The notes under the pieces: model-generated
Databases searched by the model: none
Told to the model about the DNA's origin: nothing
The model's input: the letters and a program-made list of their open reading frames with translations, nothing else
Part shown: positions 4,399 to 32,625 of the stretch, in pieces
Numbering within the stretch: the stretch's first letter is position 1
How the letters are laid out: every line of letters begins with the position of its first letter
Program-made: the position numbers and the translations under genes
Virus record (IMG/VR): IMGVR_UViG_3300046167_000151
Location: 1-34,457 of that record
Source: a virus
Reading direction: 5' to 3' (one strand)
Length of the DNA stretch: 34,457 bases

Positions 4399-4641
4399 CT
4401 AGTTCCTTCGTTTGCGATCTAAAATGACCTCTGCTGCAATCGCAGCGTCGAGTGCGTCACCGATCTTGTTTAACGCACGCAGTATTGCGTGCGCCTCCTC
4501 GCGCATCTCTATGTCAGAGGCTGCGCTGTTAGCGAAGATGCGCATTTGCTCTTCGCGAACATCGTCCACGAACGTCTGAAACGCCGTGTCATTCTTTAGC
4601 CGCTTTGCGTCGTCGGCTTGTATGCGGATGTCGGCGCTCAC
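4399..4641 (-). CDS. Hypothetical protein between portal and scaffold
   Basis: An 80-residue, charged, all-helical protein (DDAKRLKNDTAFQTFVDD, EMREEAHAILRALNKIGD, ending ILDRKRRN). The start overlaps the portal stop as ATGA, and the scaffold start follows 4 bases after its stop, so it is translated with the head genes. The family is not recognised. A small head-assembly factor is the natural guess. Confidence 0.6.
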   Translation of the reverse strand: MSADIRIQADDAKRLKNDTAFQTFVDDVREEQMRIFANSAASDIEMREEAHAILRALNKIGDALDAAIAAEVILDRKRRN

Positions 4642-6731
4642 TGTGGCGTACCCTGCGCCATGCCGCCGATCATGCGAACTTTATCCTGCTCTGCCTTGAT
4701 GCGCGCTGTATCCACTGCGGTTCCGTATTGGCCATATATCTTGGCTGCGTCTACCATGAGATCCTGAGCCATCTGGTCACGCTTCAGATCATCATCTGCG
4801 GCTGCTTTTTGCGCGTCAAGCTGCAGCTTCATCATGTCAGACTGCATCTTGCCCTGCGCCTTGATCTGCTCGGCCTGCAGGAATGCGGCGTTTGGATCTT
4901 GCGCCTGACCCTGCTGCGCCATCTGCGCCTGCTGTTGCTGCTGCATCTGCAGCATCTGCATTTCGATCTCCGGCGTAATCGGCGCGAAGTAGCGGTCGGC
5001 ATTGCGCACGCCTGACAGCGCCAGACTGTCGGCCAATGTGTTGCGGATATTGGTCAGCGATACCAAGCCGTTCATTGGCCCGTATTGCTGGTAAACCATC
5101 TGCTGCATCTGCAGCGCCTGTTGCAATGCCATCTGCTTTTCTTCTTCGCGGCCAGTGCCAAGCCCGACGTTGATGCTGATGTCCATAGACGTATCCCAGA
5201 CACGCGGATCGACGGGGATATACTGCCCGTTCATCCGCATCATCACCTCTTCGTCCATGTTCTTGTTCATCAGGCGCAGCATGACGCCAAACAGGTCACG
5301 CAGACCGTCAGCCAAGTTACGCACCATCACCTCTGTCTGGCCCGCAGCGGCCTGCACAGACGCCTGAACGGCTGCCTTGGTGGTAGACTGCAATGCGTCA
5401 GGATTAAGCCCCACAGAGGCGCTTGTGACGCCCGTCTTCTGCTCTGTGAGCTGATCCATGTATGCGAGCGCAGATAGCGTCTGACCGGCAACAAACGGCA
5501 CGCTGAGATCCTGCACAGATCCGGCTTGGCGCATCCGCACAAGTGACCCGATCTCGTTGTTCAGCACGTCGTCGATATTTACTGCGCCATCCACGATCCC
5601 AATGCGCGGATTGTTGGTCATCGCCACGTTATCCAAGATGCCACGCAGAATAGACGTCGCGGCGTCTTGGTCATTTCTCCACCAGCTCAGAAAGGCTGTG
5701 TCCGTACCAGCTATGTGGCTCTGGGTCGATCTCAAACTTGGCAAACGGGATCTCGTCGCACGGCATGAAGTCTAGCAGCTCGTATGATGTGCCGCCGCAG
5801 AGAAACTTGTACAGCACCGGCACGCCGGTTCCGTCAACATCCATACGCATGTAGGCTTCTGTGATGCCCACAAGCTTCATGGATGGGTCTAGCTCGTCTT
5901 CGTCTGACAAGTCTTCCTCGTAGCCTTGGCGCTCAAGCACCTCTGCGCCAGACATGTCGTTTGTGCCGTCAAATGGCGTCAGGTTGGATATGACCTCGAA
6001 GTCGAAGCCCATCTCGACCAGATCGCCGACGCGCATGTCTGTGCGGTGCGCCACGACATATGCGTCGTCAAATGACCGGCAATCGCGGTTTACAAAAAAC
6101 TCTTCCGGCGGGATGCTTTCTATACGCATCTCGCCCTTCATCTCAGTGCGGCTAATCTTGACCGAATGGACAGGAAGCTCGATCTGCCATGCCCATCTCG
6201 TCCATCTCGATGGACATTTCCATCGTATGCTCGATCACGTCCACGTTATCCTCTTGGATCAGGAACGTGTATTCATCATCAGACAGGTCGGTGTAGGTGT
6301 ATATTCTCGGCCACGGGGTAGTCATGCCAATACGCCTTCACGATGCCCTGCTTCTTCACCATGGCGTCTTGGAATGCGTCGTTTAGCACGCGGTATCCGT
6401 TCAAGCGCGTAAACTCGTGCTGGATGTAGCTGGTGGCCTGCTCGGCCAGCGCAACGTCTTCCGGCCCCTTCGGGATAAACTCTACCGGCCTCGCGGTGGA
6501 CATGAAGATCCGCATTAGGCTTGGCTTAACAGAGCGTACGGTATCCCGTACCTTTGTGGCCACAACCTTGCTGCGCCCGTCTTCGTGGCCAATATCAACC
6601 TCGCCGTCGTAGTAGCGCTGCGCCTTGATGCGGTCTTCGCTGATCTCGCTCTCAACGAAGTCAACGGCCTCGCTGATCGCGTTCTGCACGATGCTTTCGA
6701 TTTCACGGCGATCTTTTGGCTGTGGTTGCAT
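4638..6731 (-). CDS. Portal protein (P22/SU10-like), interrupted by three +1 frameshifts
   Basis: The dodecameric portal, about 696 residues when read through. The parts are MQPQPKDRREIESIVQ to AYWHDYPVAE; IYTYTDLSDDEYTFLIQE onward; QIELPVHSVKISRTEMKG with ESIPPEEFFVNRD; and NDQDAATSILRGILDN with NPRIGIVDG. The IPPEEF and LDNxxxxNNPR segments are typical of large podovirus portals. A Gln-rich helix (EMQMLQMQQQQQAQMAQQG) lies near the end, as in P22-type barrels. The breaks are at about 6304 (AA for A), 6187 (GG for G) and 5675 (AAA for AA); together they restore the original frame. Conserved sequence on both sides argues for sequencing overcalls, not decay. Confidence 0.8.
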
Positions 6732-22266: not shown

Positions 22267-23668
22267 TCACGCAATCCCCTGCAAATTGCGCCTAAGCGCA
22301 CCACGCCAACGTGACATCGGCCCGCTCAGGGCCGTTGCCGCGTCTGACGCCATCGTCAGGCACACGGCGTCAGCAAGGTCAGGCGAGCGCAGGCCACGCT
22401 TGCGCATGGCGTCCTTGCTCTCGGCAGCCATCTTCCCAGAGGACGTGAACGCGTAGCGGATGCCGGTCAGGTCAGCCAGCAGCTCATCGTCATTAGGCAG
22501 CTTGCAGCTGCGATCCTCCAGCCACGCCTTGCACTTGAACCACAGCTCCGTGCGCAAGTTGTTATATGTCTCCTTCATCGAGGGAGCCTCGGCAACGTTC
22601 ACGCCGCGCACGGGGGCGCCAAGCTCGTGCATCCGATCCACGACGCCCGACCCTATGCCAATGCTGTCAACAAGGATCTCGCTGGGCTGCTGCGACGGGG
22701 GCAGCGCATCATACTCAGCCATCACGCGGCCAACGGTCTGCATCAGATCGAGGCCGCGCCACGACTTGATCTCCGTGATCACGCTGCCCTCGCGCTTGCA
22801 GAACGCGGTGCGGTCGGTGCCAAAGCGCGCCGGATCAATCGCCCACACGGCGCGCGTATTCGGCGCAACCTCGATGTCGCGCCGCATCGCGGCCTCGGCC
22901 AAGTGGTACGGCACGATCGTGTCATCATCTGCCAGCGGAAACTCGCCAAGCACGCGGATGCGGAACGCGTTGCTCTCCTCCCCGTAGCGCATCCGCATCT
23001 CGTCAACGAACTCGTCGCTGACAAGCGGGCTGTCAACGCACGACCAGCGGCGCGTCCACCAGCTGCCCGCCATGCGCGTCTGGCTCTCGTAAAACGTGCC
23101 AGAGGATCGCGTGGGGTTGCTCAGCAGCACCGTGGTGGCGCTGTGGCCAGACATGCTGCCAGCGGCGGCCTCGAACACCTTCTCCGGCACACCCGACGCC
23201 TCGTCGATGACCAGCAGAACATGCTCGCTATGCACTCCGGCCAGCGCCTCCGGCGTTTCGGCGCGAGACGTGCGGGCCGAGATGAACGCTTCGCTGGCTG
23301 CCGCCGTCAGCTCAACGCGGTCTGACTTCACCGTGACCATGTCCTTCAGATTTTGCGGCAGCTCGTTGATCCACCGCTTCATCTCCGCGAACAGCGCGTC
23401 AAAGAGCTGGCCAGATGTCGGCGCGGTGACGACAACCTTATTCGGGAAGCGCAGAAACAGGAACCACAGCATCGCCCAGCTGGCAGACGTCGACTTTGCC
23501 GGTGCCATGCCCAGAGCGCACGCTGATCTTGCGCTCGCCGGACGCAATGGCAGAGAGAAACTCGGCCTGATATGGCAGCGGGTCGGCGCCAAGCACCTCG
23601 CGCACAAAGCGCACGGGGTCGTCGTAATACTCGACAACGAAGTCGTCAAACGGGTTGGCTTCACTCAT
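22267..23668 (-). CDS. terL: Terminase large subunit, +1 frameshift at the Walker A motif
   Basis: About 466 residues when read through. The ATPase part has SVRSGHGTGKST (50-60, Walker A), VVVTAPTSGQLFDALF and Walker B VLLVIDEAS. The nuclease part has the acidic residues in AIDPARFGTD, EILVDSIGIGSG and SPDLADAVCL, as in RNase H-type terminase nucleases. It packages DNA through the portal and cuts it. The break is one surplus A in GGCAAAGTC at 23494-23496, exactly at the Walker A Lys codon; removing it gives GTGKSTSASW. Both sides are fully conserved, so I treat it as a sequence error. The start at 23668 overlaps terS by 8 bases. Confidence 0.88.
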
Positions 23669-24152
23669 CAGACACCTCCACATATTCCGCGTCAATCGTG
23701 GCGGCTTCGGCGTCGCTGTTCACGCGCTTCATGTCGGCGCTAAACTTGCGCAGCGCATCCAAGTGCAGATCGCCAATGGAAAGCGTGACATTGCTCTGCG
23801 GGCGCGTGCCGTAGCGCTCCTGATTCATCGAGCCAGCCATGAACTTGCGCCACTGCACCTTCTCGCGCGTGGCAGCGATCTCCGTCGGGCTGCTGGCGCC
23901 GCTCAACCCGTCAACCATCTCCAAGCCCTGCTCCACCAGCGCATCCGCTGCCTCGCCGCGAGCCTTGCTCAGCGCAGCCGCATACTCGGGAACGCTGTTC
24001 AGTGACCTGCTAACATAGCTGCGCGTGCAGCCGTATTGGCGTGCCAGCTCGGCGACGGTGACGCCCGACGCGATCTGGTCAAACAGCCAATCTGCGCCGC
24101 CGTTGGAGGCGACCTCCGTCAATATGCGCTTGCGTAACGCCTTGCCTGCCAT
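23661..24152 (-). CDS. terS: Terminase small subunit
   Basis: 163 residues. A helix-turn-helix lies at about 33-52 (TVAELARQYGCTRSYVSRSL), fitting recognition of the packaging site. Helical oligomerisation segments follow (ALSKARGEAADALVEQGL, REKVQWRKFMAGSMNQERYG) and then an acidic tail (EYVEVSDE) that may contact the large subunit. It lies directly upstream of terL. AAGGAG precedes the ATG. The PQSNVTLSIGDLHLD segment is a pattern common in small terminases of this type. Confidence 0.82.
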   Translation of the reverse strand: MAGKALRKRILTEVASNGGADWLFDQIASGVTVAELARQYGCTRSYVSRSLNSVPEYAAALSKARGEAADALVEQGLEMVDGLSGASSPTEIAATREKVQWRKFMAGSMNQERYGTRPQSNVTLSIGDLHLDALRKFSADMKRVNSDAEAATIDAEYVEVSDE

Positions 24153-24200: not shown

Positions 24201-24237
24201 GGCAAGCGCGTAGGGGGTGCGGGGGTCAACGCTTGCC
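24201..24237 (-). other. Hairpin between HNH gene and terS
   Basis: GGCAAGCG (24201-24208) and CGCTTGCC (24230-24237) are perfect inverted repeats with a 21-base loop. One arm includes the last codons of the HNH gene. There is no T run, so it may be a processing or stability element rather than a terminator. Confidence 0.45.
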
Positions 24238-24759
24238 GTGGTTTGGATGGTAGCCGTGCTGCTGCTCGGCGTCTCTGCGCGCCTTCACGGCATCTTCAAA
24301 GTGTTTAAACGTGCCAAGGTAAACTGGGCGGTTTTTGACGCCAATACTGGCAGTCCACGTCCAGTTTACCTTATCCCAATGCACACCCATGACGCCGGAC
24401 ATATTGGTTGCGGGTATTCGCGTATTACGTGAGTTTTCAACCTGAGATGCAGCGCGTAAGTTTTCAATGCGGTTATCTGAGCGAACGCCGTTGATGTGGT
24501 CTATCTGATCCGCAGGCCAGTCGCCATTATGCATGGCCCACGCAACTCTGTGCGACTTACAGCGCTTGCCAAGAAGCACCATGCGCAAGTAGCCCCTGTG
24601 GTCTTCCTCGTAAACCTGATTGCCAGCGTAGGCGCTGTTAAATCTGCGTATGGCAGACGCAGGCGCGGGGAAGCTTTCTGCGCGCTCGCGCCAGATAAAT
24701 TTACCCGTTGAAGAGTTATACTTGAGCATTTCGTGAAGCTGCTCTACAGAAATCGTCAT
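24226..24759 (-). CDS. HNH endonuclease with AP2 domain (homing-type)
   Basis: 177 residues. An N-terminal helix-rich part precedes LGKRCKSHRVAWAMHNGDWP (HR at 70-71) and IDHINGVRSDNRIENLR (DH at 87-88, Asn at 96 and 100), the HNH_3 core. A NTRIPATNMSGVMGVHWDK to YLGTFKHFEDAVKARRDAE section (about 111-165) is an AP2-type DNA-binding domain. Such genes are free-standing homing endonucleases. It sits directly upstream of terS, a frequent insertion place. The ATG at 24759 has GGAG upstream in CAAGGAGAA, almost identical to the terS ribosome site. Confidence 0.85.
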   Translation of the reverse strand: MTISVEQLHEMLKYNSSTGKFIWRERAESFPAPASAIRRFNSAYAGNQVYEEDHRGYLRMVLLGKRCKSHRVAWAMHNGDWPADQIDHINGVRSDNRIENLRAASQVENSRNTRIPATNMSGVMGVHWDKVNWTWTASIGVKNRPVYLGTFKHFEDAVKARRDAEQQHGYHPNHGKR

Positions 24760-25004
24760 TGGCGGTTCTCCTTGTCGGCTGCCGATCAGGTAGGCGGGGC
24801 GCTGCAACGTCGCCGCCTACCCCCGCACAGTACCCCCCACGCGCTCTCGGTGCAATATTTTTTCGGCAGGCGTGTGTGCGCTTTTCTATACACACACGCT
24901 CCCGCCTGAGCGCAAAGTGGGGGGGGTCAAACCTGACCGTCTGGTCAAGATCTGTAGCTGGAATCGCATAATCGTTATTATGTTAAATTTATTATGTAGC
25001 AATA
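24760..25004. promoter_or_regulatory. Intergenic regulatory region upstream of the HNH-terminase unit
   Basis: This 245-base stretch holds no convincing gene. It contains a possible minus-strand promoter (TTGCAC at 24850-24855 and TACTGT at 24827-24832, 17 bases apart). GCGTGTGTG and CACACACGC form inverted repeats around a 12-base loop (about 24869-24899). A run of eight G is followed by GGTCAAACCTGACC (24925-24938), a 5-bp inverted repeat, and another GGTCAA at 24943-24948. A+T-rich DNA follows, with TTATTATGT twice (24976-25000). A candidate control region for late transcription. Confidence 0.45.
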
Positions 25005-25217: not shown

Positions 25218-25479
25218 CTGACGCCTCCAATTCGCCCGCTATCGCAGCGTAACCGCAGACGTCCACCCAGTTGTCCGAGTGATCGCTTGAGCGCGACCGC
25301 GATACCTTGAGCAGCACCATCATCGCCGCCACGTCCACCTCGGTCACGTCCACGCCGAGATACGCCGACCACATGCCAGCAATGGTCGCGTGCGACGCCT
25401 TTGCGGAGCCATACGTCCGCTGCCTGTCGCCCGTGATCAAGTCACCCGCCGTGCGTAAAATATCTTCCCTCGTTACCAT
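25210..25479 (-). CDS. DUF6378-like protein
   Basis: 89 residues. DILRTAGDLITGDRQRTYGS, ATIAGMWSAYLGVDVTEVDV, AAMMVLLKVSRSRSS and DNWVDVCGYAAIAGELE form the pattern of DUF6378. This is a small helical phage family of unproven function, sometimes compared with MazG-like or nucleotide-handling proteins. Length equals the family core. The start overlaps the preceding stop by 7 bases, so it shares an mRNA with the SSB-tail protein. Confidence 0.78.
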   Translation of the reverse strand: MVTREDILRTAGDLITGDRQRTYGSAKASHATIAGMWSAYLGVDVTEVDVAAMMVLLKVSRSRSSDHSDNWVDVCGYAAIAGELEASGG

Positions 25480-26060
25480 GGTATATCATCCTCTATGTTA
25501 TTGTTGCCATCTCCGTCCACCACACGCGTTACCTTCGCATGTGGAAACGTCTCAAACGCCTTCTGCAAAAACGCCTCGCTGAAGTGCTGCTTCAGCACGC
25601 ACGCGGCATCCTCGAACGAGTAGACCACCCACTGCGGATACCGCTTGCGCAGCTCAGCGCATCCCTGCCTCGCGAAGCACACGATCTGCCCGCCATCCAG
25701 CTCCACGCACCACGCGTGCGGCGACAGCGGCTTATGCCCCGCGCCTTCCGCTTCCGCTTCCATGCGCTTCCACCCCGCCATGAGCTGCGTGGCGATCTTG
25801 TTCGTCCTGACGACATCACGCTCGACGACCGCCTGCTTCAGCGCCTCGTAGGCTGCCTCGAACTTGCCTGCCAGATCCGGCGATACCAGCGACGGCAGCG
25901 TGTCACCCCACCGCTCTGTCATTTCCCTCGCCACCCGATCCAGCGGTTCGAGCTGACCCCAGACTGCCGCCGGTATAGGCTCCGTCCTTTCACCAACCGT
26001 AAACGTCCCCTTCGACGCTATCTGCTTTGCCGTAGGCCGACGCCCTTTCTGCTTAACCAT
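25473..26060 (-). CDS. Hypothetical protein with SSB-like acidic C-terminal tail
   Basis: 195 residues, family not recognised. The start is basic (KQKGRRPTAKQIASKG) and the middle helical (DLAGKFEAAYEALKQAVVE, KIATQLMAGWKRMEAE). A domain with AWCVELDGGQIVCFARQG, RKRYPQWVVYSFED and ACVLKQHFSEAFLQKAFE follows. The last residues, IEDDIPW, closely resemble the DDDIPF end of bacterial SSB, which binds many replication and repair proteins. The ATG at 26060 is preferred because AGGGGG lies 8 bases upstream; the ATG at 26066 is too close. It follows the palindrome/motif region. Confidence 0.65.
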   Translation of the reverse strand: MVKQKGRRPTAKQIASKGTFTVGERTEPIPAAVWGQLEPLDRVAREMTERWGDTLPSLVSPDLAGKFEAAYEALKQAVVERDVVRTNKIATQLMAGWKRMEAEAEGAGHKPLSPHAWCVELDGGQIVCFARQGCAELRKRYPQWVVYSFEDAACVLKQHFSEAFLQKAFETFPHAKVTRVVDGDGNNNIEDDIPW

Positions 26061-26268
26061 GACCATGCCCCCTACGCATCCCCATCAAATCAATCTCCGC
26101 ACCTTCAATAAATACGCCCGCACTTCTCTCCGCACCTTGCATATATATATGCAAGTGGTGCGGCGGAAGATTTCTTGCCGTATTTACCGCACCCTCGGCA
26201 CCACGCCGCACCATAAGTGCGGTAAGTGCGGAAACGCCCCCAACGCCACCCGTCTCGCTGGCCATCAT
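26053..26268 (-). CDS. Possible 71-aa gene overlying the palindrome and motif array
   Basis: The ATG at 26268 overlaps the helicase-primase stop as ATGA and has AGGAGG 7 bases upstream; the TAA overlaps the next gene by 8 bases. These are the marks of a real operon gene. The product (MMASETGGVGG, SALTALMVRRGAEGA, LPPHHLHIYMQGAERSAG) is low-complexity, with repeated GAE and SAL units that come directly from the DNA motif array. It may be a short gene, or chance open frame across a regulatory element. No domain is recognised. Confidence 0.42.
   Translation of the reverse strand: MMASETGGVGGVSALTALMVRRGAEGAVNTARNLPPHHLHIYMQGAERSAGVFIEGAEIDLMGMRRGHGHG
26097..26231. repeat. Cluster of eight CCGCAC/GTGCGG motifs (iteron-like)
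   Basis: Copies are at 26097-26105 (CCGCACCTT), 26118-26125 (CCGCACTT), 26130-26138 (CCGCACCTT), 26157-26163 (GGTGCGG), 26187-26193 and 26206-26212 (CCGCACC), 26215-26222 and 26224-26231 (AAGTGCGG, twice). CCGCACTT is the exact reverse complement of AAGTGCGG. The array surrounds an A+T-rich palindrome immediately after the helicase-primase gene. Replication origin or regulator-binding array is inferred from layout only. Confidence 0.7.
26136..26155. other. Perfect 20-bp palindrome with flanking complementary arms
   Basis: CTTGCATATATATATGCAAG is perfectly self-complementary. Allowing a 2-base bulge, the outer arms CCGCACC (26130-26136) and GGTGCGG (26157-26163) also pair, giving a long cruciform with an easily melted A+T centre inside G+C-rich DNA. 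It fits an origin-melting site or an operator. Confidence 0.75.
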
Positions 26269-28466
26269 ACCCCCGCCTCCTCTCCCGTTATCCATTCACC
26301 CACCACCACGCACGGCACATCCCTGCCGTCACGCTTGCTTGGCGCAGACGTTTTACGCAGCACGCCGTTCTCGATCCACTTGCCCACGATTGCCTTGGCC
26401 TTCGCCTTCTCGTGTCGCTTCTCCAAGTCGAGCCCCAGCACGTCTGCCACCGTGACGCCGACCCACGTCTTGGCCTGCACGTTTGCGCGGAGCGGCTCGC
26501 CCTGCGTTTCCGCGTCGCCCACCGCGCGCTGCACCTTCATCGCGTCGCGCGCCGACACGCCGTCGAAGAGATCCGGCATCGCATATTCCGTGGCCACGCC
26601 GACATATTCCATGTTTGGCAGCTGCACGCCCACCATGCGTCGGTATACCGCCTTCGCTGCTGGCGGCGCCAAGTTTGCCTTGCCGTCGTCTACGCGGAAT
26701 ATGCCGAGGCTCTCCGCTTCGCTCACGCCCAGCTTCTGCGCGTCTTCTGCGCTGATCTTGTTGATGACCCGCGCCGCACGCGCCGCCCCGATCAGCGACC
26801 CCGCGCCCCTGACGCTGTCTATGGTCGCCTCGTCCCCGTTGCCCTTGCGGATGTGATGCACCAGCGCCACGGCGCAATCTGTCTCGTCGCAAACGCTACG
26901 CACGGCACCGACGGCTGCGTTCATGGCCACGTTATCGTTTTCGTTGATCTGGTTCGCGCCGACCCACGGGTCGATCATCACCATGCCGATGTCGTTCTCC
27001 TTGATCTTGGCCGCCATGTAGTCGAGCATCTCGTCGTTGACCTCGATCCCGTCGCGCCCCTGATTGGCGAACACCATGTTCAAGCTCCTGCCAGCGTCGA
27101 GGAACAAGCGCCCCCGTATTTCCTTGGCGGTGACGCCGTAGTGCAGCATCGCCGCCGCAAGGCGTCTCTGCATCTCCTCCAGCGGGTCTTCCAGATTGAT
27201 GATCCACACCCTGCACGGCTCGTGTATGGCCTCGCCCAGCAGCGGCTTGCCCGTTCCGATGCACAGAGCCTCCACGATCTGCAGAGACGTCTTCCCGACG
27301 CCGCCCGCCGATGCCAGCACGCTGACATGGCCTCGCACGTAATGCTGCCCGTAGATCCACCGCCGCGCCGGTATTGTCGCGGGATCTATTGGCTCGTATG
27401 CGGTTGGCCACTGGCGCTCGCCTGCGATGCGCTCCTGCTTTACTTCCTCGACCGGCTTCGCCAGCGCCAGCGCCTCGCGCAGCTTTTGCGCGCCCGCTTC
27501 CTGCAGGTAGTCGTTGGCATCCTTTACGTTTTCCACGCCCAGCGCGTCGAAGCGCACGACGTGGACGTCGGTGCTGCCGTCGCCTCGCAGCACGTCGGAA
27601 ACCGCCTCCACGTCTAAGTCTGGGTCTGCGCAGATCGTGACATCGCTGGCACGTGGCGCGTTAAACGTCTTCATGCCCGACTTGCCAAATGTGCACACGA
27701 TTGTCGCCTCGACGTGGCCCATGATTGCCTGACGCACGCTCAGCGCATCCTCTGGCCCCTCGACCAGTATGATCGCGCCGCCCTCGTGCTGGTCGCCGAT
27801 CCGCATGGCGTTGCCCACCAGTGATCCGCGTGAATACTTGTTGATGTTGTTATGCTCTCGCTTCTTCCCATCCGGCGTCAGCAGCACCGACTGCACGCCG
27901 CACAGCTCGCCCTGCTCGTTGGTCGCGGGAAACAGTATCGCTGGCCCATCGTATAAGCTGGGGCTGAAGCGCGCGACGCCCTCCGCCACGCCTGCTCGCA
28001 TTCCACGGTTGTTCAGGTACAGCAGCGCCGGTCTGACGGCGTCCTTGTTCTCGCGTGATATTGGCACGCTGCGCTCCCACGCGGCCTGCGCCTTTGCGAT
28101 TTTCTCGGCGCGCGTTTCCTCGTCGCGGATCAGCAGATCCTTGCTGGCCAGCCTTACGATCAGGCGATCCATCTCGCTCGGCTGAAACGGCACCGCGTCA
28201 TCGTTTTCGAGCTGCTTCGGGTTTTCGCTGCCCCGCTTGAACCCGCTGCCAATGGTTGCCTTGATCTCGTGTTCCTGCAACCCGATTGCCTTGGCCGCCG
28301 TGTGCAAGTCTATGACGCTGCTATCAATGTTGCTGGCGTCCATGTGCGCGTGCCGACCCAGCGCGTATGCCGCGAGGTTCAGCGCCTCGTTGCGACGCCC
28401 CTGCGGAGCCATGCCGATCTCGGTTACGACGCTTTCCCGTACCTTCTGAAAATAGTTTACGCTCAT
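26265..28466 (-). CDS. Helicase-primase (Toprim plus RepA/AAA_25-type ATPase)
   Basis: 733 residues. Residues 1-225 are an N-terminal part with AALLYLNNRG-like sequence and a strand-rich segment (DGPAILFPATNEQGEL, GVQSVLLTPDGKKRE). Toprim residues are visible as ILVEGPEDAL (233-242) and ICADPDLDVE (278-287), with DANDYL (317-322). A RecA-like motor follows: Walker A ASAGGVGKTS (385-394), Walker B MVMIDPWVG, and a later VALVHHIRKGNGD. The C-terminus has a winged-helix-like segment (KAKAIVGKWIENGVLRK). It should unwind DNA and prime synthesis. As no DNA polymerase gene is visible, it probably feeds the host polymerase. There is no zinc-binding motif at the N-terminus. Confidence 0.85.
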   Translation of the reverse strand: MSVNYFQKVRESVVTEIGMAPQGRRNEALNLAAYALGRHAHMDASNIDSSVIDLHTAAKAIGLQEHEIKATIGSGFKRGSENPKQLENDDAVPFQPSEMDRLIVRLASKDLLIRDEETRAEKIAKAQAAWERSVPISRENKDAVRPALLYLNNRGMRAGVAEGVARFSPSLYDGPAILFPATNEQGELCGVQSVLLTPDGKKREHNNINKYSRGSLVGNAMRIGDQHEGGAIILVEGPEDALSVRQAIMGHVEATIVCTFGKSGMKTFNAPRASDVTICADPDLDVEAVSDVLRGDGSTDVHVVRFDALGVENVKDANDYLQEAGAQKLREALALAKPVEEVKQERIAGERQWPTAYEPIDPATIPARRWIYGQHYVRGHVSVLASAGGVGKTSLQIVEALCIGTGKPLLGEAIHEPCRVWIINLEDPLEEMQRRLAAAMLHYGVTAKEIRGRLFLDAGRSLNMVFANQGRDGIEVNDEMLDYMAAKIKENDIGMVMIDPWVGANQINENDNVAMNAAVGAVRSVCDETDCAVALVHHIRKGNGDEATIDSVRGAGSLIGAARAARVINKISAEDAQKLGVSEAESLGIFRVDDGKANLAPPAAKAVYRRMVGVQLPNMEYVGVATEYAMPDLFDGVSARDAMKVQRAVGDAETQGEPLRANVQAKTWVGVTVADVLGLDLEKRHEKAKAKAIVGKWIENGVLRKTSAPSKRDGRDVPCVVVGEWITGEEAGV

Positions 28467-29147: not shown

Positions 29148-29948
29148 TTATGCGCCGTGCGACGCGGTGAAGTTGAACGCCCAGCGCGGTATCTGGAGCG
29201 TTTGCAGCTCCCCATACCCGTAGCCCCAGACGCCCGTGTTACGCGCTATCGCAAACTGCTCCAGCGCGTGTTGAACTGCCGCGTCGCCCTCGTTGAGCGT
29301 GCGCCAGTCAAGCTCGTACACACCAACGGGGTAAGGCGCTTCCTTGCCCACGCTGATGAAGATAAACCTGTCGATCTCTTCCCCGATCAGGCCCATCGTC
29401 CTGCGGTAGAAGCTTTCCTGAATGTGATACCCGAAGTTGGCCACTTGCTTGCTAAAGCCTTCGGGGTCTGGAGCTATGGTTGTCTTCAGATCTATCAGCG
29501 CCCCAATGTCACGACGCCACCCGTCTGGACGGCAGCGCAGATCCACGCCCGTCTGCGTGTCCTTCGCGAATATGCTGGCCTCGCAGATCAGATCGCCGGA
29601 TAGCAGCTTGGCCACCTCCTTGTTGCTGCGCACCGCGTTAGCCGCGTCCACGGCGATCTTGTAGTCGCCCTCCGTTAGCAGCAGCGCGCCGTTGGCGTCG
29701 GCCTCTGCCTTGTGCTGCGTCCAATCTTTGCCGCGCCGCGTCTCCGGCCCGCACCATACGGTGCTTGCGTGCTGCGGCTCAAACACCAGCGTGTGCGTGG
29801 CCGTGCCTACGTCAAATGCGGTGCTTTCCTTACGTTCAGCGTATTTGTAATGCGCCAGCGACTTCATGGCGATTGTCTTGGCCCCAGAGGCGCTGAGCGC
29901 GTCGCTCAGGTGGTATTCCTCGTTTGACATCGTGGTTGATATGGTCAC
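29148..29948 (-). CDS. RecE-like exonuclease, PD-(D/E)XK (DUF3799/PDDEXK_1 type)
   Basis: 266 residues. NEEYHLSDALSASGAKTIA opens the protein, then DVGTATHTLVFEP and catalytic residues in the order Glu123, CRPDGW (139-144, Asp142) and LIDLKTT (151-157, Asp153 and Lys155). A QVANFGYHIQESFYRR segment follows, typical of RecE-type exonucleases. It should degrade one strand from DNA ends for annealing or recombination. No RecT-like annealing protein is obvious; the SSB-like neighbour may fill that place. It lies in the recombination block, with a one-base overlap with the gene before. Confidence 0.85.
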   Translation of the reverse strand: MTISTTMSNEEYHLSDALSASGAKTIAMKSLAHYKYAERKESTAFDVGTATHTLVFEPQHASTVWCGPETRRGKDWTQHKAEADANGALLLTEGDYKIAVDAANAVRSNKEVAKLLSGDLICEASIFAKDTQTGVDLRCRPDGWRRDIGALIDLKTTIAPDPEGFSKQVANFGYHIQESFYRRTMGLIGEEIDRFIFISVGKEAPYPVGVYELDWRTLNEGDAAVQHALEQFAIARNTGVWGYGYGELQTLQIPRWAFNFTASHGA

Positions 29949-30454
29949 TATCTTTGCTCCTCCACTACTTTCTTTATGCAGTCAATGACGTCATCAATGT
30001 AAAACACCTCACGATTTGACACGGGGAAAAATGGCTGCATCGACTTCAGCTTCTTGGATTCCAGCCAGCCTTTTAAATGAAAGTTGTTGATCCCAACAAG
30101 GCTCGCCACTTCACCTTTAGTCAAAAACATTTTCCCATTATTTTCCAAATGACGCATGACTTGCGCGTTCATGCCTTGAAACTCTCTCGCATCATGGCGG
30201 AACTTTGGTACACGCTCATCGCCATCATTAATGTGATGCTTGTTGCATTCTGGCTGCTCAACTCTAATCGCCTCACGCTCAGCCTTTAAAGCTTCTTCAC
30301 GCGTGTCAAACCACTGCAGCTCAATATTAGTTACATCTAAAAACCAAGCAGATCCCTTGTAATGCTGCTTAATTCTTTTTGAGTAATCTAGGCTGATGCC
30401 CACATATAAAAGTTTATTTTCTTTATTAAACTGGCGATATAATGCTGTCTTCAC
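29948..30454 (-). CDS. GIY-YIG-like nuclease with C-terminal HTH
   Basis: 168 residues. The GIY-YIG core is visible as ALYRQF (4-9), LLYVGIS (15-21) and the RIKQH segment (Arg27, His31). The first Gly-Ile of GIY is replaced by Ala-Leu. A middle helix (EALKAEREAIRVEQPE) carries a Glu-rich part, and the C-terminal third (KMFLTKGEVASLVGINNFHL) is a helix-turn-helix of the excisionase type, with YIDDVIDCIKK. The DNA is visibly A+T-richer than its neighbours, which suggests recent acquisition as a homing-type gene. It overlaps both neighbours by one to four bases. Confidence 0.72.
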   Translation of the reverse strand: MKTALYRQFNKENKLLYVGISLDYSKRIKQHYKGSAWFLDVTNIELQWFDTREEALKAEREAIRVEQPECNKHHINDGDERVPKFRHDAREFQGMNAQVMRHLENNGKMFLTKGEVASLVGINNFHLKGWLESKKLKSMQPFFPVSNREVFYIDDVIDCIKKVVEEQR

Positions 30455-30906
30455 GCCTTCCCCCTTCCATATAGCGCTATCAGCAGCGCCTCTGCTCTGT
30501 GTTCATCTTTCTTGCGCTTCAGCTCGCTCGCCCTGTCGGGAAACCACTGCTGCGCCATGCGACGCGCCGCGTCTTTATCCTTTGGCAGGTTCATCGCCCG
30601 CTTCCACACGACCGGCGTCACCATGGTGTAGCGCGTGCGCGACAGCGCCACGGTCGTCGTGATCTGGCCAAACGCATACCCCAGCTTAAACGTGCTGGAC
30701 ACGCCTTGCTTTGGCATCGCCTGCTGCTTCTCGATCCATATGTGATCGAGCCGATCCACCGACGTGAGAATATCCATCAACGCCACGACGTCTACGCCGC
30801 CCTCGCTGTAGACGGGTAGGTCATGCACCTCCGACCAGTTTTCACCGACCAGCGCCACGCCGCCCGTGCGGTAGCCGCAGTCTATGCCACACGTAACAAT
30901 GCTCAA
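30451..30906 (-). CDS. RuvC-like Holliday junction resolvase
   Basis: 151 residues with the RNase H-fold acidic residues in the usual places: CGIDCGYRTGG (Asp9), IWIEKQQAM (Glu59) and KKDEHRAEALLIALYG (Asp134, Glu139). The VSSTFKLGYAFGQI segment and VTPVVWKRAMNLPKDKDAAR are also as in phage RuvC-like proteins. It would resolve branched replication intermediates before packaging. It starts on an ATGA junction with the gene before and ends on one with the GIY-YIG gene. Confidence 0.85.
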   Translation of the reverse strand: MSIVTCGIDCGYRTGGVALVGENWSEVHDLPVYSEGGVDVVALMDILTSVDRLDHIWIEKQQAMPKQGVSSTFKLGYAFGQITTTVALSRTRYTMVTPVVWKRAMNLPKDKDAARRMAQQWFPDRASELKRKKDEHRAEALLIALYGRGKA

Positions 30907-31951: not shown

Positions 31952-32144
31952 TTTCGTTCTCCTGTGTTGGCCGTGGCTGTGGTCTTACGTCGGGCCACGG
32001 GCGGCGGTAGTCTGCCTCTCCGCCCATCTCGACGCATTGCGGCTCAAAGATCCGCGCTAAGTCGTAGTATTTCGCAAACGCTTTGCACTCGTCTGCGGAT
32101 GAAAAGACGGCGAATGCCATGAAGACGGGTTCTGCTAGGGTCAT
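31944..32144 (-). CDS. Hypothetical small protein
   Basis: 66 residues. A strand-helix start (PVFMAFAVFSSADECKAFAK) recalls small ferredoxin-like folds, followed by YYDLARIFEPQCVEMGGEA and a Pro/Arg-rich tail (RRPWPDVRPQPRPTQENENG). No family recognised. ATGA overlap with the endonuclease VII gene upstream. Confidence 0.52.
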   Translation of the reverse strand: MTLAEPVFMAFAVFSSADECKAFAKYYDLARIFEPQCVEMGGEADYRRPWPDVRPQPRPTQENENG

Positions 32145-32533
32145 ATCGCCTCTCCTCTGTAATGCGCAGAAAGCTTTGCCTCTACGATCAAGGCTTCATA
32201 TTTGGTGATGTTTGCCTCAACGCGGCCAAGATCCAAGTTGCAGCTATTGCACAGCAAGCCCCGCAAGATCGGCGGGTTGGTGCCATGCACATGGTCAACT
32301 TTAAGGGATGCCTTTTCGCATTTCTCGCCGCACACTTTACAGCATCCATTTTGCTGCTTGTAGGTGATGTCGATCCACTCGATGCCAATGCCATATTCCG
32401 ATTTGAAATAAGACTTTCGCTTAGACGCGGTGCGGCATTTTTTGCATTGGCTGGTCATACCGTCAGGCTTTGTCCTGTCAATTGCGAAAAAGTCGCTGCT
32501 CTTTTTTTGCAAACACTTTGAGCAAACCTTCAT
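32141..32533 (-). CDS. Recombination endonuclease VII-like
   Basis: 130 residues. An N-terminal zinc ribbon (CSKC at 4-7, CKKC at 30-33) is joined to the Endonuclease_7 core: CCKVCGEKC (64-72), LKVDHVHGT (77-85, Asp80-His81) and LRGLLCNSCNLDLG (90-103, Cys95 and Cys98). T4 endonuclease VII of this fold cuts branched DNA before packaging; many phage members are general structure-specific nucleases. The ATG at 32533 overlaps the previous stop as TGATG and is preferred over one 3 codons upstream. Confidence 0.82.
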   Translation of the reverse strand: MKVCSKCLQKKSSDFFAIDRTKPDGMTSQCKKCRTASKRKSYFKSEYGIGIEWIDITYKQQNGCCKVCGEKCEKASLKVDHVHGTNPPILRGLLCNSCNLDLGRVEANITKYEALIVEAKLSAHYRGEAI

Positions 32534-32625
32534 CACATCCACCCCATGCTAACAGCGCCGATCCAGCCCAGCACCGACGCGGCAATCGCTGCGGCGATGA
32601 TGATGTCTTGCGTCCAGTTTGTCAT
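32533..32625 (-). CDS. 30-aa single-span membrane peptide
   Basis: A 30-codon gene enclosed by TGATG junctions on both sides (32627-32623 and 32535-32531). The product has a polar start (MTNWTQD) and one transmembrane helix (IIIAAAIAASVLGWIGAVSM). A membrane micro-protein of the early region is likely; no family is recognised. Without it, a gap would remain in an otherwise fully overlapped set of genes. Confidence 0.65.
   Translation of the reverse strand: MTNWTQDIIIAAAIAASVLGWIGAVSMGWM

Follow-up and report, generated by a model that had tools for sequence, protein, structure and literature searches.

A candidate replication origin in a group of tailed phages, with iteron words that follow two residues of the adjoining helicase-primase

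A cluster of short repeats located directly downstream of a helicase-primase gene is, in our view, very probably the replication origin of a group of tailed phages, recognised by the helicase-primase that is encoded just upstream. This assignment is drawn from sequence comparison, in which two residues of the C-terminal domain of the protein follow the word that is repeated in the array. The stretch of DNA analysed (hereafter the window) is an entire IMG/VR virus record of 34,457 bp. All genes identified in it lie on the minus strand; its capsid, portal and adaptor families are SU10-like and its fibre family is of the podophage GP4 type. Along the helicase strand, the stop codon of the helicase-primase is followed by the array and then by the start of a 197-aa protein, the array ending ~30 bp before the start of the latter ORF. 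The array consists of the following elements (window positions).

26097..26231, both orientations: iteron array of eight GTGCGG sites, at 26097-, 26118-, 26130-, 26158+, 26187-, 26206-, 26217+ and 26226+
26214-26222 and 26223-26231: exact 9-bp tandem units TAAGTGCGG
26136..26155: perfect 20-bp palindrome CTTGCATATATATATGCAAG, between the inward-facing iterons 26130-26135 and 26158-26163
26109..26116: outer arm TAAATACG, complementary to CGTATTTA at 26179-26186
26179..26186: outer arm CGTATTTA, complementary to TAAATACG at 26109-26116

The initial annotation of this region had described eight clustered copies of GTGCGG/CCGCAC in both orientations, two of them as exact tandem units, around a perfect 20-bp palindrome with complementary outer arms. 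The clustering was confirmed by exact counting and a Poisson test, and the tandem units, the palindrome and the pairing of the arms in the window sequence itself. Exact matches to the motif number 32 in the window, against a chance mean of 33.7 for the whole record; eight of these fall within the 135 bp between 26097 and 26231, where ~0.09 would be expected at the density of the other 24 (Poisson P ~1e-13). Both flanks of the array show negative GC skew, which is uninformative as an origin signal because the genes run one way. A comparison with Rfam yielded only one match, which was sub-threshold. The array is bordered by two genes, the first of which encodes the proposed binding domain.

26265..28466, minus strand: 733-aa helicase-primase with DUF7146, Toprim_3 and AAA_25 (RSF1010 RepA-like) domains and a C-terminal predicted winged helix
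26268..26609, minus strand: residues 620-733 of this protein, predicted winged helix and proposed iteron-binding domain (AlphaFold2 and covariation)
25473..26066, minus strand: 197-aa protein (p197), present in 101 of 102 loci

The RecA-fold core of the helicase-primase is recognised as AAA_25 (Pfam, E 9.8e-38), and the sole PDB sequence match of the 733-aa protein at E 0.01 is RSF1010 RepA (1g8y, E 4e-8). Pfam gives AAA_25, Toprim_3 and DUF7146 only, with no helicase domain of the SF3 or D5 type. One PHROG match is titled DNA polymerase/primase, its aligned part (residues 343-578) lying in the helicase region, and Pfam scans of 30 window ORFs detected no DNA polymerase family. The 197-aa protein belongs to no Pfam or PHROG family and has no relatives among named phages in a protein search; its AlphaFold2 model (pLDDT 70) gave no clear PDB match, none at E 0.001 or better.

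Searches with the helicase and the 197-aa protein retrieved more than 100 IMG/VR relatives with an array on the downstream side of the same helicase-primase gene, helicase identity among the retrieved loci ranging from 99% to about 50%. No near relatives were found among named phages at the DNA level, and 44 named-phage records share part of the helicase at less than 60% identity in a protein search. One relative, L241 (CAKZOI010000056.1), is a 17-kb contig of this phage group assigned to the bin of an uncultured Opitutae MAG, which hints weakly that Opitutae may be the host; in another locus (G011, L085) the helicase match is in three pieces, reflecting a frameshift or an assembly error. After collapsing identical regions, 77 unique loci had the array between the helicase and the 197-aa gene; the larger collection kept 106 unique loci out of 226, of which those with at least four copies of the word make up the 102-locus set used below. 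Duplicates were removed by exact identity of a stretch, so that near copies remain and many of the loci are near copies of one another.

The repeated word is not always GTGCGG. Depending on the lineage it is GTGCGG, GTGTGG, GTGAGG, CTGTGG, CTGCGG or CTGAGG, so that the core on one strand reads [GC]TG[CTA]GG, most copies within one genome being of the same variant. When 6-mers were counted without restriction (in sets of 43 and 33 loci), CCGCAC, CCACAG, CCACAC, CCTCAC or CCTCAG, or an overlapping word shifted by one base, usually ranked at or nearly at the top. The base that precedes C-type words is A in every distinct site (28 sites for CTGAGG, 47 for CTGTGG and 5 for CTGCGG), and that preceding G-type words is mostly G or A. 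The spacing plan is common to all six words: its commonest form, -9-9-11+19+29-28+12+21+ (orientations and distances), is recognisable in each word type, with sites missing or added in some loci and with deviations in L049/L052 and L158. L008 has an extra 9-bp tandem unit (-9-9-9), from which it appears that the outer 9-bp repeats expand and contract. The distance from the helicase stop downstream to the array is at most 2.2 kb in 102 of the 106 unique loci, the window included, and in many of them other sequence intervenes. In relatives where the spacer between the helicase and the 197-aa gene extends to 386 to 1890 bp, the extra sequence separates the helicase from the array and, in at least some of them, contains long open frames; the array still adjoins the 197-aa gene in those long-spacer relatives that were displayed.

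Variation of the word at its first and fourth bases was compared with variation in the neighbouring proteins. A first scan by mutual information covered 76 of the 77 loci, L123 being omitted for its rare word CTGCGG, and placed helicase residues 664, 710 and 718 at the top for base 1 and residue 713 at the top for base 4. The enlarged scan covered 1,898 testable columns of seven proteins in 102 loci; these seven, out of 13 neighbouring proteins, were those with enough loci, which left out the terminase small subunit (27 loci), the HNH and GIY-YIG genes and genes beyond the flanks. It yielded a single error-free column for each variable base, both in the helicase. The codons concerned, together with that of a third, associated residue, are located as follows.

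26475..26477, minus strand: codon of Q664, which tracks core-word base 1 (Q=G, R=C)
26337..26339, minus strand: codon of S710, a wing residue linked to base 1 and also, in a single lineage, to base 4
26328..26330, minus strand: codon of D713, at the tip of the wing; this residue tracks base 4 (D=C, A/H/T=T, Q=A)

Residue 664 alone follows base 1 faultlessly, with 102 of 102 loci in agreement (Q with G in 62, R with C in 40), and residue 713 is its counterpart for base 4 (102 of 102), with D and C paired in 41 loci, Q and A in 23, and T paired with A in 20, H in 15 and T in three. The runners-up for base 1 are also in the helicase (residue 718, 0.99; residue 694, 0.98). The best columns outside the helicase are residue 81 of p197 for base 1 (0.95, 13 states) and residue 19 of p227 for base 4 (0.92, 52 loci), such outside columns having 10 to 13 residue states; the best base-4 column of p197 reaches 0.87, and no column of the terminase large subunit (TerL) is error-free in the 102-locus scan. 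The preferences Asp-C, Gln-A and Ala/Thr-T fit known side-chain chemistry, whereas His-T and Gln-G are less obvious.

All three residues fall within the C-terminal tail, residues 620-733, which we propose to be the iteron-binding domain on the basis of its predicted fold and of the covariation. Its AlphaFold2 model (pLDDT 81, pTM 0.72) is a winged helix, with helices at model positions 20-35, 50-58 and 65-81 followed by a wing of strands 84-90 and 97-103. Foldseek gave no match to this model at E 0.001 or better, and a sequence search of the PDB with a profile of the tail gave no match up to an E of 1. VIA-align matched it, at Z scores of 7.4 or below, to RecQ-family, MukEF, FtsK gamma, MecI and MarR chains, which we take to be mostly winged-helix proteins. 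The entry 1KA8, presumably the structure of the P4 origin-binding domain, is not among the best 50 rows of either Foldseek or VIA-align; the two domains may nevertheless share a fold.

The rule derived from the 76 loci was applied to 33 new unique loci, 25 of which matched and none of which mismatched. Three of the remainder have a residue not seen before, T713, all with GTGTGG, and five lack an array of at least five copies in reach; two of these five, L158 and L159, carry the predicted word at four and three copies, and in L079 and L142 no array was seen downstream of the helicase. The locus kept out of the discovery set, L123 (CTGCGG), has the predicted pair R664 and D713, and L241 also fits the rule. 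In L191, the last of the five loci without such an array and a distant relative whose helicase is ~51% identical over part of its length, a clustered CAGTGGCGGA-type motif follows the helicase gene at 4640-4800. For a second test the rule was fixed with T713 read as base T and applied to 41 unique new loci (56 loci minus 12 duplicates and minus three without the tail). Thirty-six, representing seven residue combinations, matched and none mismatched; among the five without at least five copies, L276 and L296 have the predicted word at four and three copies, and L272 is an incomplete locus.

A single lineage, represented by the remaining two of these five, L264 and L265, breaks the rule: it combines Q713 with A710 and has GTGGGG at four copies (core GTGGG) in place of the predicted GTGAGG, the L264 array being otherwise normal-looking. 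Residue 710 therefore matters as well. Four further loci (L261, L266, L277 and L278), with R664, S710, H713 and P718, have mixed arrays of five CTGTGG and four GTGTGG copies, and the R664/S710/P718 lineage looks like an intermediate of relaxed specificity.

On a tree built from helicase residues 1-600 (91 of the 102 rows), a minimum of 15 changes of the word is required. Independent contrasts across supported branches agreed with the rule in every case, namely 5/5 for residue 664 and base 1 (p 0.06), 5/5 for C with D713 (p 0.06), 7/7 for T with A, H or T713 (p 0.016) and 3/3 for A with Q713 (p 0.25; sign tests throughout), the 7/7 contrast alone having a p value below 0.05 on its own. The best argument for the code comes from near-minimal pairs. 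L054 and L062 differ at three positions of residues 636-728 (H713D, I721V and S727N) and have GTGTGG and GTGCGG, respectively; L057 and L068 differ at five positions, including H713Q, and have GTGTGG and GTGAGG; L062 and L068 differ at five, including D713Q, and have GTGCGG and GTGAGG. The central palindrome is identical in these four loci, and a few off-type copies persist, such as one GTGCGG in L054. For base 1 the closest pair differs at 23 residues, so that there is no minimal pair and the role of residue 664 rests on recurrence. Finally, when L024 (CTGTGG) is compared with the window, identity is 89-100% in the initial 1,900 bases of the helicase gene, drops to 75, 79 and 53% in the tail and to 45 and 40% in the array, and recovers to 87-96% in the 197-aa gene; its tail domain and array differ from those of the window as one block.

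In 99 of the 102 loci, clustered to 21 lineages, the stretch between the inner iterons has a mean self-complementarity of 0.74 (range 0.50 to 0.91) versus 0.44 when shuffled. With the iteron words masked, the outer arms pair better with their own partner than with those of other lineages (5.33 versus 4.50; 1 of 5000 shuffles), a preference that is clear in some lineages only; with the iteron copies unmasked the values are 5.62 and 4.79 (0 of 1001). The palindrome of the window is A+T-rich, whereas those of some relatives (L037, L170) are G+C-rich, which suggests that pairing rather than A+T content has been kept. The A+T-rich melting site that had been postulated here does not appear to be general. 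The link between an origin and the helicase-primase, which formed the core of the same proposal, is strongly supported, because C-terminal residues of the helicase track the array word; the melting site and a coding role for the array are not.

From the array, its shared geometry, the residue-base correlation, the near-minimal pairs and the block exchange, all of which are present in the sequences themselves, we infer a scheme of binding, initiation, ring loading and hairpin formation. Copies of the C-terminal winged helix from several subunits would bind the 6-7-bp iterons that face each other across the palindrome, the wing of each presumably entering the major groove, a mode of contact borrowed from RFX1 and TcpK. 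Residue 664, located before helix 2, would set base 1 and the wing-tip residue 713 base 4, with residue 710 modulating the choice. The bound domains may then place helicase rings at the origin, inward-facing sites setting them around the palindrome; the palindrome or its flank would open, possibly as a hairpin, and the helicase would load, after which the Toprim domain could prime and the host polymerase take over. Origin types might change either by substitutions in the domain accompanied by conversion of most array copies or by exchange of domain and array as a block. Genes for an exonuclease VIII-like protein (29148-29948) and a GIY-YIG protein (29948-30454) are present upstream of the helicase, and those for a Holliday junction resolvase (30451-30906) and an endonuclease VII-like protein (32141-32542) further upstream; these four genes suggest that later replication is recombination-dependent.

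The helicase-primase might instead bind the array as an operator, regulating the 197-aa, packaging and late genes without any origin function. The inferred binder would be the same protein and the array is ~30 bp upstream of the 197-aa gene. However, a search of 25400-26900 limited to promoters of the sigma-70-like type found none there, and helicase-primases that bind DNA in a sequence-specific manner typically do so at origins. We consider the operator reading unlikely as a replacement for an origin, although the two roles can coexist.

It is less likely still that a separate DNA-binding protein reads the array and that the correlation with the helicase tail reflects hitch-hiking of neighbouring DNA. 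Domain and array lie side by side, so that the correlation could be inflated by linkage; block exchange does occur, and the scan was limited to proteins within the flanks. Nevertheless, the array is closer to the start of the p197 gene than to either codon 664 or codon 713, yet the best columns of p197 (0.95 and 0.87, for bases 1 and 4) are not error-free. The near-minimal pairs, moreover, differ at residue 713 among only three to five residues in all, and the same residue-base pairs recur on separate branches of the tree.

A packaging site, with the palindrome as the cut site and the repeats as sites for the terminase small subunit, as in lambda cos, would likewise place repeats around a twofold-symmetric site near terminase genes, and an HNH endonuclease gene is situated in between.

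24226-24807: HNH endonuclease gene, between the terminase small subunit gene and the array
23661..24152, minus strand: terminase small subunit (Sf6-like; PF20901 above cut-off, phrog_1482), adjoining the large subunit, ~2 kb from the array

The assignment of p197 as the terminase small subunit was rejected, because the recognisable small subunit (PF20901) is the product of 23661-24152, ~2 kb away from the array. For the same reason a cos or pac site bound by terminase at the array is very unlikely. The columns of TerL contain no error-free one, while those of helicase residues 664 and 713 are error-free, the small subunit being available in 27 loci only. The contig runs through the array in all 102 loci, an observation that is not decisive for samples of cellular DNA.

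That the repeats are incidental to a small coding gene is scarcely credible, even though the window has a 71-aa frame here (80 aa if an earlier ATG is used), which is open in all 31 close GTGCGG relatives, in many of them with an ATGA overlapping the preceding stop, and in which 30 of 83 changes are synonymous versus 18 of 82 and 22 of 83 in the shifted frames. Variable sites in these 31 relatives are distributed over the codon positions as 18/24/20, with no third-position excess; a covering frame is open in 63 of the 102 loci and missing from 19 arrays of other types and from all 20 CTGAGG arrays, which have stops in all three helicase-sense frames; and the co-varying bases are the ones that the helicase residues track. 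The combination of coding and signal functions that had been suggested is not supported, nor does the 71-aa frame persist as a protein throughout the group. Rather than a peptide kept and motifs lost, the reverse was found: the array is kept and the peptide is lost in part of the group.

The alpha protein of P4 combines priming and unwinding in one polypeptide whose C-terminal domain recognises iterons, and its helicase and primase types differ from those of a RepA-like Toprim helicase-primase. The present protein is unlike P4 alpha in this respect, and its tail profile, as mentioned, has no PDB sequence match at E up to 1. P4 alpha and its cognate ori are named together in PMC6092414 (in part), which also describes PICI origins as two iteron sets flanking a central region. 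In SaPI Rep and SCCmec Cch2 the C-terminal domains read iterons located downstream of their own genes (PMC7581432, in part). The arrangement described here resembles that of SaPI/PICI Rep in having short iterons directly downstream of the helicase gene and a C-terminal predicted DNA-binding domain; it differs in the motor, which is AAA_25/RepA-like with Toprim here and DUF927 or Primase_Cterm/D5_N in the relatives named in that source (PMC7581432, in part), as well as in belonging to a tailed phage and in having a palindrome at the centre of the array. The oriV of RSF1010 is melted first by the separate RepC, after which RepA is loaded (PMC8965321, in part). The helicase core described here is like RSF1010 RepA (1g8y), whereas its recognition function, unlike that of RSF1010 with its separate RepC, appears to be fused to the helicase. 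The best reading is of an origin bound by the tail of a RepA-like Toprim helicase-primase, which would act in the manner of SaPI Rep or P4 alpha while using another motor.

Co-variation of initiator and origin has precedents in other settings. In the PLE satellites of Vibrio phages, the DNA-binding domain of the initiator RepA and the origin covary and are swapped as a module; PLE RepA differs from the present protein in being a RepA_N initiator with an N-terminal DNA-binding domain and ~30-bp iterons, and the accessible part of PMC8263062, from which these details are taken, contains no residue-base code. In geminiviruses, iterons of 5-6 nt differ between close viruses in step with the iteron-related domain of Rep, and amino acid-base pairs have been proposed by comparison (the latter from a title cited in PMC12548392; both from that source in part); geminiviruses differ in their single-stranded DNA, rolling-circle replication and use of another protein. 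As regards the mode of contact, the beta-wing of TcpK and of RFX1 enters the major groove, and TcpK, which resembles MukF, recognises tandem repeats of 9 nt at oriT (PMC6137059, in part). MukE-MukF and MukBEF chains are also among the structural matches of our tail model. TcpK and RFX1 are conjugation and transcription proteins and not helicases. Within the accessible parts of the open-access literature, we found no report of this phage group, of an AAA_25/Toprim helicase-primase reading its own iterons, or of such a code.

A broader proposal, for which we see the prospects as evenly balanced, is that these phages possess a decodable origin code, in which the wing tip and the residue preceding helix 2 of a RecA-fold Toprim helicase-primase set the word base by base. 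The phages would form origin types comparable to plasmid incompatibility groups. They would switch type by way of intermediates with relaxed specificity (mixed arrays, and R664 with S710/P718) or by exchanging tail and array together as a cassette, and origin-directed nucleases, satellites or co-infecting phages may provide the drive for this. Two questions that are hard to approach from single examples are how a start site is selected by phages with no evident polymerase of their own and how the specificity of an initiator changes in concert with that of its many sites; with six origin words, near-minimal protein pairs and a predictive rule, initiator-origin co-evolution becomes directly testable. 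The code predicts whose origins a given phage could fire, and it would give the tail of a RepA-like phage helicase a part in origin binding. For annotation it provides a simple procedure, which is to read residues 664 and 713 and then to seek the corresponding word downstream.

Three named phage genomes with a RepA-like helicase were inspected for comparable arrangements. Rhizobium phage RHph_X2_26, the first named match, has no array beside its helicase (the top 6-mer has four copies, shuffles giving three to five). Downstream repeat arrays with other motifs were present in the other two.

KP792623.1 (L251), about 2820-2990: CTGCTAC array downstream of the RepA-like helicase
MW202557.1 (L250), about 5810-6050: GTGAGTACTCACAG array downstream of the RepA-like helicase

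The former genome, that of Rhodoferax phage P26218, has seven copies of CTGCTAC, and the latter, the environmental genome ctfPj964, has ten copies of ACTCACA. A further apparent array in ctfPj964, upstream of the helicase, was discarded as it lies inside a pentapeptide-repeat gene. The same layout, with other motifs, in two named phages may point to a wider class of self-recognising RecA-fold initiators.
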